The notes beneath the pieces are model-generated. The model did not search any database. It was not told the origin of the DNA and saw nothing but the letters and a program-made list of their open reading frames with translations. Position numbers and translations under genes: made by a program. From NCBI GenBank assembly GCA_029865385.1, contig JAOUGX010000030.1, forward strand, positions 1 through 35,887: 35,887 nt of DNA, read 5' to 3'. The DNA comes from Gammaproteobacteria bacterium. GTDB lineage: Bacteria > Pseudomonadota > Gammaproteobacteria > Steroidobacterales > Woeseiaceae. Below are positions 2 through 3,917 of the stretch, one piece after another; within the stretch, counting starts at the first letter, position 1, and each line of letters starts with the position of its first letter.

Positions 2-613
2 ACGACAGCAACCGGCAAGCATCCGACGCACATCGCAAGCGGGAACAATTGTGATGATTGCCATACGACAGTCGCCTGGATCCCTGCGAACTTTGACCAT
101 GCCGGGATAACCAGCGGATGCGTCAGCTGCCATAACGGCACGGATGCGACGGGCAAGAACCCGACGCACGTCAATACGACCAACGTCTGCGAAGACTGTC
201 ATAGCAAACTGACATGGATACCTGTGGTTACCGTTGACCATTCGCAGGTTCTAGGTTCTTGCTCGTCTTGCCACAATGGAACAGACGCAACCGGCAAGAA
301 TCTCGGGCATTTTGTTACTCCGATGGAATGCAACGTTTGTCACGACACTACGGCGTGGCTACCTCACACATTTCAGCACTCGGCCTTGCCGTACGAGCCC
401 CTGGATCACAGGCGAAATCTGAATTGCAATAATTCGCGCTGCCACCAAGGGAATTCACAAATCGTAAATTGGCAATCTCCGCAGTACCTGCCAAATTGCG
501 CCGGCTGTCATGCAAATGACTACAAGGCAAGCGTCGACAAGCACAACGGTATCAACAACGACCAGAATTGTGCCAACAGTGGCTGTCACAGGATTTCCGA
601 CAATGAATGGTAG
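2..613 (+). CDS. Multiheme cytochrome c (3' part), tandem diheme repeats
   Basis: The frame is open from the left edge to the TAG at 611-613, so only the last 203 residues are present and the start lies outside the window. Six CXXCH heme sites are visible in order (CDDCH, CVSCH, CEDCH, CSSCH, CNVCH, CAGCH), plus two CX4CH sites (CNNSRCH and CANSGCH) near the C-terminus, giving up to eight c-type hemes in this fragment. Conserved His residues outside the motifs (PTHI, FDH, VDH) are candidate distal ligands for bis-His hemes. The N-terminal part is built from 46-47-residue modules. Proteins with doubled CXXCH modules are periplasmic or extracellular electron carriers. The next genes encode an outer-membrane-type barrel and a lipoprotein, which suggests electron transfer across or outside the outer membrane; that role is inferred. 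Substrate, total heme count and export signal cannot be seen. Confidence 0.9.
   Translation, partial: TTATGKHPTHIASGNNCDDCHTTVAWIPANFDHAGITSGCVSCHNGTDATGKNPTHVNTTNVCEDCHSKLTWIPVVTVDHSQVLGSCSSCHNGTDATGKNLGHFVTPMECNVCHDTTAWLPHTFQHSALPYEPLDHRRNLNCNNSRCHQGNSQIVNWQSPQYLPNCAGCHANDYKASVDKHNGINNDQNCANSGCHRISDNEW
5..382 (+). repeat. Tandem 46-47-residue diheme modules inside the cytochrome
   Basis: Units begin at 5, 143 and 284 with the signature (D/T)ATGK. Each complete unit runs through CXXCH, a W-I-P element, a DH and a second CXXCH followed by NGT. The third unit is complete only through its first heme site and then diverges. Copies of the NGTDATGK segment differ mostly at synonymous positions, so the repeats are old and held by selection on the protein rather than freshly copied. 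Confidence 0.8.
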
Positions 614-673
614 TCACCTAGGCTGGTTTGGGGCGAGCCTGCAGCGCGTCATCCATTAAGGTTTGCTTATCTG

Positions 674-3196
674 ATGGTAATCAGAAGCGGAATATTTCAG
701 AGTTTGCTGCAATTTTTTTGCGGTTTCATTCTGTTACTAGCAATGCAGCAGGGATACGCTGGGCCGGGATTCGTTGCAGGAGCAGACATTAAGAGCGGTT
801 CGTCGCTGGCGCAACTCAATATTCGTTTCAATTGCCGAATATCCTACCAGTCACACGAGCCAGGAAATCATGGCGCTATTCTGCGAATTCACGTGGAATC
901 TACAGGTATCTGCAGCGGCGTTTCCCCGACCGTGGCGGAAGACAGGGAGCAACACCGGCCTAGCGGCGCCGACGATGCCAAGATTGTCGATTTCGAGTAT
1001 GACGGCACGATGGCAGCCGGCCCCACTCTCACGGTAAATTTCAGTGAAGACGTGCGCTATGAAGTTTCTGCACCCGCGGCCGGCGACGGGTTATCCGTAC
1101 GGATCTATTTGAATCCGCCAGTGGTGGGCATCGAGCCGTCCAGGTCCGCCGCAAGCTCGACGGCGGAGACCCGATTGAAGCCTCGCGACGAATCGACCGG
1201 GCAGAAATACGTTATCAATCTGCGCTCCTCACTGAAGCCGAGCAGCCGCGCGGAAATGGCGGCTGTGAGCGCCGAATCAGGACAGGTAGTGTTCGAAACC
1301 GAGGCGCTCGTCGGCGAGAAAACCTGGTATCGGCTGCGCCTCGGTTACTTCCCAACTGCTGATGCAGCGTCGGCTGCTGTGTCGAAACTCCGGCTACAGT
1401 ATCCCGGTGCCTGGATCGACCGCCTTGCCGAGAAGGACGTGGCAGCCTCTGCCGCTGCAATGGATTCGACAGGGGGCATGTCCGGTATTGAGGCCAGCGC
1501 AAACACCGCCGCGGTGCCAGCTACGGTGGCAGCACTTGGCGATGTAGGGACTCCGCCGGATGCCAATGCGAAAGTGCAACAGTTAATGGCGGATGCACGT
1601 CAGGCCATGACCGATGGCGAGGTATCGCGGGCTGTTCAGATCTACACCAAGATCCTGCAGATGCCGCCAACGGATCAGTCACCCGTCGCGCTCGAGTATC
1701 TCGGACTTGCACGTGAGCGTAACGGGCAGATCGCGCATGCGACTGCGGAGTACCAACGTTACCTGGCTACGTATCCGGACGGCGAAGGTGCCGCGCGCGT
1801 TCGACAAAGGCTGTCGGCGCTGGTGTCCGTTGCCAATCCCGGAAGCAGGTCAACTCAAAGCCTCGCTTCCAGATCATCCGGTACTGCGGCAACCCGGAGT
1901 CCGTGGAGTTCAAACACATTCCTCACGCAATACTACCGCCGCGATGTTAACCAGTTAAATGAGCAAGATCAGGTTATCAGTCAGTCCGCAGTCTTTTCGG
2001 ACGTCAATTTCGATCTTCGTCGGCGGGGCGAGCGATACGATTTCAGCTCGAGGATATCGGTCGGCTATCAACACGATATGCTCGACGAAGAGTCCAGCTC
2101 GGGTAACGATACTCGTCTTTCTTACGCTTATGCCGACCTCGCGGACTCGCGGACGGGCCTTCGCGGCAGGCTGGGGCGGCAGTCACGCAATACCGGAGGG
2201 GTTCTCGGTAGATTTGACGGCGCGAATCTGGCGTACCGGCTCGGCGAGAAAGTGTTGCTGAATACCGTGGTAGGCAAGCCTGTCAATTCGACGTCGGACG
2301 GCGTCGACGATGAGCGGACGTTTTACGGCCTTAGCGCGAACTATGGCCCGGTAGGCGACGGCCTGGACCTGGGCGCGTTTTTTGTCCAACAAACTGTTTC
2401 TGGAATGACGGATCGCCAGGCCGTGGGCGCTGAGATGCGTTACTTTGCAAACGGCAAGAGCTTGTGGGGAATGCTCGACTACGATATTTCGTATCAGGAA
2501 CTTGGTAGTGTCTTTCTTCAGGGCAGCTGGCGTTTCGAGTCCGATCTGACACTGAATGCTTTGATCGACAGACGCCGAAGCCCGTTCCTCAGTACCAGTA
2601 ACGCATTGATTGGTCAGCAATTCGAAACTTTTACAGACTTGGCCTCAACCTTGACCGAAGAGGAGTTGCGGCAGTTAAGCCTTGATCGAACTGCCATCAG
2701 CACCACGTACACACTCGGATTTTCACGGTCGCTGACACCGAGACTGCAACTAACCGCCGATGCTTCGCAGTCCGTCATCGACGCAACGCCAGAGTCCGGC
2801 GGAGTGCCCGGCAATCCGCAGTCGACGTATCGGTATTATTCGACGAGCCTGCTTGCCAGCAGCCTGATCAAGGAAGGTGACGTTTCGATCATCGGCCTGA
2901 GAATGTCGGATTCGAGCAGTACCCGCGTATATTCAGTGAATCTCGACACGCGCTATCCGTTCGGCAACGGGCTTCGAATCAATCCCAGGTTGCGCGTTGA
3001 TTACAGGGAAATACTCTCGGATATGAGCACCGAGTGGATCTATACTCCAGGCTTGCGACTTCAATATCGGATGGGCCGGCGGGGTCGAATCGACCTGGAG
3101 GGTGGAAAGCAGATTTCCAAACGCAGCGCGGAGACCATAGACCTCGATCGAGATTCATATTTCATCAATTTCGGATACCAATTAATTTTCCAATAA
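674..3196 (+). CDS. Outer-membrane beta-barrel protein with AMIN-like, SPOR and TPR regions
   Basis: 840 residues. A signal peptide is visible at about 1-29 (hydrophobic core, then GYAG). Residues 40-150 are beta-rich and resemble an AMIN-type module (weak). About 176-250 fits a SPOR domain (YVINL start and a TWYRLRLGYF element), a fold that binds peptidoglycan. After an Ala-rich linker, about 300-385 looks like TPR helices (ARQAMTDGEVSRAVQIYTKI and a second helical pair). From about 415 to the end there are alternating amphipathic strands with many Arg, Tyr and Ser, ending in YQLIFQ with an aromatic near the terminus, as in outer-membrane barrels. The gene starts 60 bp after the cytochrome and ends 2 bp before the lipoprotein gene, so the three are probably one operon. 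A conduit or anchoring role for the cytochrome is inference; it is not recognisable as MtrB/PioB. No strong ribosome-binding site is seen. Confidence 0.8.
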   Translation: MVIRSGIFQSLLQFFCGFILLLAMQQGYAGPGFVAGADIKSGSSLAQLNIRFNCRISYQSHEPGNHGAILRIHVESTGICSGVSPTVAEDREQHRPSGADDAKIVDFEYDGTMAAGPTLTVNFSEDVRYEVSAPAAGDGLSVRIYLNPPVVGIEPSRSAASSTAETRLKPRDESTGQKYVINLRSSLKPSSRAEMAAVSAESGQVVFETEALVGEKTWYRLRLGYFPTADAASAAVSKLRLQYPGAWIDRLAEKDVAASAAAMDSTGGMSGIEASANTAAVPATVAALGDVGTPPDANAKVQQLMADARQAMTDGEVSRAVQIYTKILQMPPTDQSPVALEYLGLARERNGQIAHATAEYQRYLATYPDGEGAARVRQRLSALVSVANPGSRSTQSLASRSSGTAATRSPWSSNTFLTQYYRRDVNQLNEQDQVISQSAVFSDVNFDLRRRGERYDFSSRISVGYQHDMLDEESSSGNDTRLSYAYADLADSRTGLRGRLGRQSRNTGGVLGRFDGANLAYRLGEKVLLNTVVGKPVNSTSDGVDDERTFYGLSANYGPVGDGLDLGAFFVQQTVSGMTDRQAVGAEMRYFANGKSLWGMLDYDISYQELGSVFLQGSWRFESDLTLNALIDRRRSPFLSTSNALIGQQFETFTDLASTLTEEELRQLSLDRTAISTTYTLGFSRSLTPRLQLTADASQSVIDATPESGGVPGNPQSTYRYYSTSLLASSLIKEGDVSIIGLRMSDSSSTRVYSVNLDTRYPFGNGLRINPRLRVDYREILSDMSTEWIYTPGLRLQYRMGRRGRIDLEGGKQISKRSAETIDLDRDSYFINFGYQLIFQ

Positions 3197-3198
3197 AT

Positions 3199-3795
3199 AT
3201 GTCCGTACTAATGCGAACGACAGGCGTCAAGCAGGCGCTCGGAGTCGTGTTCCTGTTTTTCGTTTCCAGTTGCGCGTCTTTCGGCGCGTCAACTATCGAA
3301 AAACTCGATCCGCTGACCAGCGTTACGCTGACGGCCGTCAAGACGCCGATGATTTTTTACCGGGACAATTCCGGACGGGCGGCATACGCAAAGGACTTCG
3401 CCAATCTCGGGCCGATCCAGGTTAACCAGAGTGGTCGGTACCGGTACTTTCTGTGGGTTGGAATCTGGAGTACCGGGCAGGAGAGCGCTGACACTCGCCG
3501 CAGAGACAACTTTGAGGAACCGGTGTTGTATATCGACGGCGAGCCTTTCCAGTTGGTGCTGGCGGGCTGGACGCCCGAGTCGATCGGAGCGAGTGAAGGG
3601 ATTTACACGAAGCCGGTCGCCTCGGCAATCGATGCCTATTACGAAGTCACGCCGGATGTTATTCGATTGCTGGTCCAAGCCTCGGACGTCCGCTTGCGTA
3701 CGGGAGGCATCGACGGCGTATCGTTTGAGCCGTGGAACGATCAGCAGGCTGCCAGAGACAGCCTCAAGGACTTTCTTGAGCTGATTGCGTACTAG
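3199..3795 (+). CDS. Putative lipoprotein, function unknown
   Basis: 198 residues. The N-terminus has basic residues, a hydrophobic stretch (GVVFLFF) and a lipobox VSSC with Cys25, so it should be processed by signal peptidase II and lipidated. The mature part is beta-rich with no motif I recognise; conserved-looking elements are YFLWVGIW, LYIDGEPFQLVLAGW and a TPDVIRLLV stretch. The ATG lies 2 bp after the stop of the barrel gene, and an alternative ATG is at 3211. It is the last gene before the terminator at 3811. The context suggests a periplasmic or outer-membrane partner of the barrel and cytochrome. This is inferred from position only. Confidence 0.75.
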   Translation: MSVLMRTTGVKQALGVVFLFFVSSCASFGASTIEKLDPLTSVTLTAVKTPMIFYRDNSGRAAYAKDFANLGPIQVNQSGRYRYFLWVGIWSTGQESADTRRRDNFEEPVLYIDGEPFQLVLAGWTPESIGASEGIYTKPVASAIDAYYEVTPDVIRLLVQASDVRLRTGGIDGVSFEPWNDQQAARDSLKDFLELIAY

Positions 3796-3810
3796 CGAAA
3801 ACTGAAAAAA

Positions 3811-3830
3811 AGCCCCCAGGTTTGGGGGCT
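3811..3830 (-). terminator. Bidirectional rho-independent terminator
   Basis: An 8-bp perfect stem (AGCCCCCA / TGGGGGCT) with a GGTT loop. On the - strand it is followed by seven T, making it a strong terminator for tRNA-Asn. On the + strand the tail is weaker (CTTTC), but it can still end the cytochrome operon. Confidence 0.9.
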
Positions 3831-3841
3831 CTTTCAATATT

Positions 3842-3917
3842 TGGCTCCTCGGGCCGGACTCGAACCAGCGACCAATTGATTAACAGTCAATCGCTCTACC
3901 AACTGAGCTACCGAGGA
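3842..3917 (-). tRNA. tRNA-Asn (GTT)
   Basis: 76 nt with encoded CCA. On the - strand the acceptor TCCTCGG pairs with CCGAGGA, the D-arm is AGCTCAGTTGGTAGAGC, the anticodon loop is ACTGTTAATC with anticodon GTT, and the T-arm contains GGTTCGAGTCC. A promoter lies upstream and a strong terminator lies directly downstream, so it is a monocistronic tRNA unit. Confidence 0.97.

Follow-up and report, generated by a model that had tools for sequence, protein, structure and literature searches.

Genes and Features of the Locus

The window analyzed here is a stretch of 35,887 nucleotides, namely contig JAOUGX010000030.1 (C119) of a gammaproteobacterial genome of 3.92 Mb in 198 contigs with an estimated completeness of 99.96% (G000). 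At its 5′ end, three plus-strand genes follow in a row and encode the end of a large multiheme cytochrome (MHC), a barrel protein and a predicted lipoprotein (Table 1). We propose that they are probably the 3′ end of a porin-cytochrome cluster of the PCC3 type, which would pass electrons between the cytoplasmic membrane and the cell surface. The original prediction, made from the DNA alone, described the same run as a repeat-built multiheme cytochrome, a barrel protein with SPOR- and TPR-like regions and a lipoprotein, forming a possibly new electron conduit and ended by a terminator. The cytochrome is borne out by its heme motifs and by a match of its open reading frame (ORF) to Cytochrome_C7 (E 1.5e-10), and the SPOR and TPR regions were likewise recovered, the former above and the latter below the respective Pfam cut-off.

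Table 1. Features at the 5′ end of the window.
Feature	Position	Strand	Remarks
C-terminal end of large repeat-built multiheme cytochrome (candidate “extracellular MHC” of PCC3)	2..613	+	six CXXCH; open at the 5′ edge of the window
PCC3 porin-type protein, 840 aa: signal peptide, N-terminal domain, SPOR, TPR, beta-barrel-like C-terminal domain	674..3196	+	
Small N-terminal domain, residues ~31-150	764..1123	+	homologous to separate gene “mid”
SPOR domain, residues 203-248, putative peptidoglycan binding	1280..1417	+	Pfam SPOR E 2.7e-7
TPR region, residues 315-380	1616..1813	+	Pfam TPR_9 E 5.4e-5, below Pfam cut-off
C-terminal beta-barrel-like domain, residues 415-840 (~425 residues)	1916..3193	+	~22 candidate strands (rough count, arbitrary threshold)
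Order-specific predicted lipoprotein	3199..3795	+	begins 2 bp past the barrel stop; VSSC before the mature part
Hairpin with T6 tail	3806-3835 (read 3835-3806)	-	downstream of tRNA-Asn; the one strong terminator called where the run ends
tRNA-Asn	3842-3917	-	convergent to the three-gene run

The three genes appear to be the 3′ part of a longer operon, the remainder of which sits at the end of contig C19 (locus L005) of the same genome. The first 207 bp of the window match the end of C19 with 96% identity, within repeats of 279 nt. Before its end, C19 encodes a FAD/NAD(P)/ferredoxin oxidoreductase (443 aa, minus strand), a CcmI/CycH-like protein, a 307-aa membrane protein (L005:13747-14670), a cytochrome of 526 aa that has 21 CXXCH, and finally the first part of the large cytochrome (L005:16203-17450), which contributes 15 CXXCH to the six in the window. 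Because the match is 96% and not 100%, the number of repeats between the two contigs is not fixed, and because the assembly broke inside the repeats, an exact heme count for the joined cytochrome is not obtainable. The join is supported by three loci in which the genes are contiguous. In L007 (JAACFE010000051.1, from the Gammaproteobacteria metagenome-assembled genome bin.24), the oxidoreductase, the membrane protein, the 21-heme cytochrome, the large cytochrome and the start of the barrel follow one another on one contig in identical order, and the same gene order is found on one contig in L041 and L051, both from the order of the window. An upstream extension, which had been suggested for obtaining the full cytochrome and any inner-membrane quinol oxidase, yielded the rest of the operon by way of this inferred join, with a FAD/[4Fe-4S] oxidoreductase and the 307-aa protein as the candidate inner-membrane partner. 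In the genome of the window, galU lies directly 5′ of the locus.

Assignment to PCC3

According to the main text of PMC5566968 (He et al., 2017), PCC3 occurs in Alpha-, Beta- and Gammaproteobacteria. It comprises two MHCs, one extracellular with a median of 34 hemes and one periplasmic with a median of 21 hemes and 22–39 amino acids per heme, together with a porin and an inner-membrane protein of ~300 amino acids that holds SGXXG and two WX3HX13H motifs. Each of the features tested has a counterpart in the joined cluster. The large cytochrome is apparently built of the 279-nt repeats on C19, the 526-aa cytochrome has a predicted ratio of 25.0 amino acids per heme, and the 307-aa protein holds SGXXG and both WX3HX13H motifs. 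The combination of a barrel with multiheme cytochromes into an outer-membrane conduit is what the published PCC3 model describes, and the idea of a conduit finds support here by analogy. Its novelty does not, the gene set having been published as PCC3 in 2017 (PMC5566968).

The complete relative of the large cytochrome in L007 has 51 CXXCH. Across the loci, the cytochromes adjacent to the barrel contain 15 to 133 CXXCH, where the lower counts stem from cut contigs, and two large cytochromes stand beside one barrel in L040, L054 and L064. The upper value belongs to a PCC3-type cytochrome ORF of 4071 aa in G213 (C17; from L086:14022 into L057), which was pieced together from two stretches that overlap; the largest one known to He et al. 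in 2017 had 85 hemes (PMC5566968). Against the DmsE/MtrA decaheme model TIGR03508, with its cut-off of 192.2 bits, the window part of the large cytochrome scores 26.2, the C19 part 72.6 and the 21-heme protein 32.6 bits.

Conservation and Co-occurrence

Conservation was assessed in a sample of 369 genomes of the class. The barrel model matches 62 of them at E up to 1e-3, some via SPOR alone, and 45 at 1e-20, the threshold at which the membrane-protein model matches 42. The two occur together in 40 genomes, where 5.1 would be expected (hypergeometric 1.6e-45, relatedness ignored), while only the barrel is found in G159, G178, G302, G304 and G360 and only the membrane protein in G093 and G326. 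The membrane-protein model (A3) was built from loci beside the barrel and is biased to that extent; 19 of the 21 membrane-protein genomes that supplied no row to it also contain the barrel.

At the level of loci, 51 stretches were retrieved and 56 barrel ORFs examined, among them fragments and weak matches. A same-strand ORF with at least five CXXCH lies 5′ of 44 of the 51 barrel ORFs that have at least 600 bp of room (18/19 loci in the order of the window). Of the 38 loci that offer 6.5 kb of room or more, 32 hold the membrane protein, 30 the FAD/[4Fe-4S] protein and 29 the 21-heme-type cytochrome; these are undercounts, as the stretches of L057 and L064 end before the upstream genes. In 26 of the 38, again an undercount, the FAD/[4Fe-4S] gene is accompanied by a gene for an ankyrin/Sel1-repeat protein of ~670 aa (e.g., L042:15236-17278), which is not found on C19.

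L066 (G264:C129) is a decaying PCC3 locus with the barrel in two ORFs, the membrane protein truncated by an internal stop and no cytochrome genes in the stretch. Within the genus label g2 of the 117-genome set of the window’s order, the barrel is patchy, being present in five and absent from six of the genomes listed, which suggests loss or transfer. No relative was found among plasmid records.

Domain Organization of the Barrel Protein

The barrel protein was compared with 45 relatives (alignment A2, n = 46). Counting a region where at least 60% of its columns are filled, the TPR and barrel regions are common to 46/46, the N-terminal domain to 37/46 and SPOR to 32/46. In Pfam searches of the same proteins (E up to 0.05), SPOR matches 28/46, TPR_16 31/46 and OMP_b-brl 6/46, and TPR_Slam matches weakly in 6/46. 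The SPOR domain of the window protein scores 31.3 against a gathering score of 21 bits for PF05036, and the family profile aligns with the DamX SPOR domain (2lfv, E 3.3e-6) as well as with the TPR of CpoB (6g5s, E 1.4e-6). The N-terminal domain has no match in Pfam or the PDB; its relative “mid” stands as a gene of its own between cytochrome and barrel in several loci. An AMIN domain was considered for this part and rejected, with no AMIN match among the 25 of 30 families listed in the family-wide Pfam scan or in the PDB profile search.

Residues 415-840 are a candidate beta-barrel, an assignment that is supported only indirectly. An aromatic residue occupies one of the last two positions in 43/46 relatives, with a C-terminal F in 35, and the region exceeds shuffled columns in beta-type hydrophobic periodicity (z of 5.5 averaged over the family and 3.3 for the window protein by itself), the TPR region being alpha-periodic in the same test. 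The N-terminal domain is no membrane domain and yet is beta-periodic too (z 3.8), so the test detects beta structure in general and not a barrel specifically. No solved barrel occurs among the 36 PDB profile matches of the family up to E 5. The length of the region varies little (median 427, range 372–467 residues). In the main text of He et al., up to 42 transmembrane regions are counted in PCC3 porins (PMC5566968), compared with ~22 here after the N-terminal half was assigned to SPOR and TPR.

SPOR and TPR on a barrel had been put forward as a distinct architecture, and the combination does appear unusual. Neither word is used in that sense in the main texts of the PCC3 papers searched, which do not mention such a part of the porin, although the supplements may list it. 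Literature searches found no work joining multiheme with SPOR domain and none relevant by title on porins with peptidoglycan-binding and TPR parts.

Inner-Membrane Protein and Oxidoreductase

Both WX3HX13H motifs are present in 33 of the 34 membrane-protein ORFs, the exception being truncated, and SGXXG is present in all 34. In a crude hydropathy analysis of the 307-aa protein, four segments exceed the threshold, and the HX13H stretch comes in addition. He et al. compare the PCC3 membrane protein to ferric-reductase/NADPH oxidase (NOX) domains and propose quinone exchange (main text of PMC5566968). Among 35 relatives of the oxidoreductase, the FAD motif is found in 33, a GGGD[ST]A motif in 30 and a hydrophobic N-terminal segment in 31. 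The canonical CxxCxxCxxxCP is found in 31/35 and a second cluster motif, C-x2-H-x2-C-x3-CP, in 34/35, with a redox CxxC in the FAD/NAD(P) part in 0/35. The best NCBIfam match, YpdA, stays far below its cut-off (157.4 vs. 339.9 bits). A conserved membrane-anchored FAD/[4Fe-4S] partner is not mentioned in the PCC3 main texts searched, although the supplements may list it. The word ferredoxin is absent from the main texts of PMC5566968, PMC8788666, PMC12442390 and PMC12016527; it occurs 15 times in PMC10734462, at places which, as far as shown, concern proteins other than PCC3.

From the company of such a membrane protein and a cytoplasmic FAD/NAD(P)/[4Fe-4S] partner we infer a split NOX-like unit, and this conserved partner suggests that electrons might enter in an NADPH-oxidase-like, NAD(P)H-linked manner. 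A more far-reaching version, which we regard as speculative and rather doubtful, is that PCC3 as a whole is a split NADPH-oxidase-like trans-envelope machine. In that version, the FAD/NAD(P)/[4Fe-4S] protein would connect cytoplasmic NAD(P)H or ferredoxin with the two b-hemes in the membrane protein, and the quinone pool would not be needed. From there the electrons would run along the 21-heme cytochrome and the giant one, by way of a barrel that SPOR clamps to peptidoglycan. Published PCC3 models place the quinone pool at that entry instead (PMC5566968, main text).

Lipoprotein and the 3′ End of the Run

The VSSC sequence agrees with the earlier call of a lipoprotein, for which Pfam and NCBIfam give no match. 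It was found in 4/369 class genomes, all from the order of the window. Among 117 genomes of that order, the barrel (E up to 1e-15) and the lipoprotein (E up to 1e-3) each occur in 23, of which 21 are shared. In 19 of these 21, the lipoprotein gene lies directly 3′ of the barrel on the same strand, and in G401 and G472 it lies on another contig. The lipoprotein model (A6) was built from barrel-adjacent loci, 3 of the 19 adjacent cases (G000, G017 and G368) having supplied rows. Lipobox-like motifs occur in L006, L041, L051 and L093, and L006 (JAHKKM010000259.1) combines the lipoprotein with a barrel 73% identical to that of the window. L093:8852-9415 (G275:C8) is a distant homologue; it lies close to galU in a genome of the same order that has no confident PCC3 barrel. 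The view of the three genes as one conserved unit was rejected: cytochrome and barrel co-occur widely, and the lipoprotein is limited to the order of the window. Our guess is that the lipoprotein forms an accessory outer-membrane part of the conduit.

The terminator assigned to the run scores as one for its convergent neighbor. The only strong call is on the minus strand, directly 3′ of tRNA-Asn, and points to the tRNA gene. A scan of the plus strand called none at the end of the run (5 sites found vs. 4.3 in shuffles). The hairpin may also act on the plus-strand run.

Alternative Explanations

Several points weigh against a PCC3-type conduit. The assignment was made from published feature descriptions, and function has so far been shown for no PCC3, which is termed functionally unverified (PMC12442390). 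In Sideroxydans lithotrophicus ES-1, thiosulfate gave higher values than Fe(II) for both PCC3 clusters (PMC8788666). The strain's extracellular cytochrome Slit_1448 is at 0 in all eight proteome columns covered (PMC12016527). Homologous barrels without a neighboring cytochrome exist, the seven cases being two pieces of the broken barrel in L066 plus L077, L078, L079, L083 and L088. The large cytochrome of L007 exceeds the DmsE cut-off (233.4 vs. 192.2 bits, summing 11 repeat stretches) and also the Pfam cut-off for MtrC/MtrF domain II/IV. AlphaFold2 reached a mean predicted local distance difference test score of only 32.5 for the whole protein from 3 sequences and 27.1 for residues 410-840 from 2 sequences. 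Lastly, 18/46 relatives have no SPOR match, and since SPOR is not universal, peptidoglycan binding cannot be essential. As to expression elsewhere, both PCC3 clusters of CL21 lie above the mean with or without iron oxidation (PMC12442390). In a magnetite proteome of ES-1, the second cluster was represented by its porin, its periplasmic MHC and its inner-membrane protein, but not by its extracellular MHC (PMC12016527).

The TPR-barrel protein could instead be chiefly a channel through which the large cytochrome is exported or assembled, and not the sheath of a trans-membrane heme wire; we consider this unlikely. Periplasmic TPRs fused to a C-terminal barrel are known from the exporters Slam, PgaA and BcsC, and here TPR and barrel are precisely the part common to all aligned relatives, some of which match TPR_Slam weakly. 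The nearly constant barrel beside cytochromes of widely differing heme number, and the single barrel beside two large cytochromes, would also fit export; a constant sheath with a variable external wire suits a conduit equally well. A conduit is the better fit for the close conservation of the barrel alongside a periplasmic cytochrome with 21 hemes and a redox protein of the inner membrane. It is far less probable still that the genes are chance neighbors or that C19 and C119 are falsely linked, as the imperfect repeat match might allow, given that L007, L041 and L051 each hold these genes in this order on a single contig. An ordinary MtrAB/MtoAB or MtrCAB system, for which the adjoining multiheme cytochromes and their partial DmsE-model scores could be cited, has next to no probability left and was rejected. 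The window porin has no match to MtrB_PioB (PF11854) at E up to 1 and does not align with the MtrB_PioB porin of its own genome (hhalign probability 2.3%), in keeping with the original statement that the barrel is not recognizably MtrB/PioB. That porin (G000:C31:53589-55520, L114) served as the positive control with 438.7 bits and lies beside a cytochrome with 10 CXXCH, so that the genome appears to encode a second, MtrAB-like conduit.

Proposed Mechanism

From the observed gene content, order, conservation, motifs and domain matches, a PCC3-type conduit can be outlined, in which localization, heme loading, complex formation, electron flow, its direction (metal oxidation or reduction) and anchoring are inferred parts. 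At the cytoplasmic membrane, a membrane-anchored FAD/[4Fe-4S] oxidoreductase and a five-helix, bis-heme-b-like membrane protein would exchange electrons. The 21-CXXCH cytochrome, presumably long enough to cross the periplasm, would carry them between membrane and barrel, and the outer-membrane barrel would provide the link to the repeat cytochrome, which is very large and would lie on the cell surface or extend beyond it. In the periplasm, SPOR and TPR of the barrel protein most likely tether the complex to peptidoglycan and align the periplasmic cytochrome. Threading of the cytochrome by the barrel, the other option in the original inference, is shown by none of these observations. In the order of the window, the lipoprotein may be an added outer-membrane part. 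With the barrel in 45/369 class genomes PCC3 is widespread, and the domain plan offers handles for probing its function. That the barrel keeps its size next to cytochromes with 15 to 133 heme motifs further provides a natural series on the limits of a protein wire.

Comparison with Known Systems

MtrCAB, MtoAB and PioAB share with this cluster the general design of an outer-membrane barrel with multiheme cytochromes; they differ in the porin, with no sequence relation detected, and in heme numbers, which are far larger here. Their inner-membrane partner is CymA-like, in contrast to the b-type-like protein of this cluster. Slam, PgaA and BcsC show no significant sequence match beyond TPR, and the genomic context here is redox. 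A partial likeness exists within the same genome, where contig C94 (L094:1341-6247) encodes a protein distantly related to the membrane protein (E 1.0e-21) beside a FAD/[4Fe-4S] protein and a multiheme cytochrome. This group has no PCC3 porin, its cytochrome carries 10 CXXCH and an FHA domain, and its FAD/[4Fe-4S] protein (789 aa) carries cNMP-binding domains.

The closest likeness is to PCC3 (He et al., 2017, PMC5566968; also PMC10734462), with which the cluster shares a non-MtrB porin, a large repeat cytochrome, a periplasmic cytochrome of ~21 hemes, the ~300-aa inner-membrane protein with its SGXXG and paired WX3HX13H motifs and a conserved gene order. PCC3 porins are of neither the MtrB/PioB nor the OmbB kind. 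Compared with the main texts only, since the supplements may list more, the differences are the N-terminal domain, SPOR and TPR on the porin, the FAD/[4Fe-4S] oxidoreductase, the ankyrin/Sel1 protein at many loci and the order-specific lipoprotein. The cluster is a real, well-conserved and already described kind of conduit, to which the present analysis adds the domain plan of the porin and the neighbors that travel with it.

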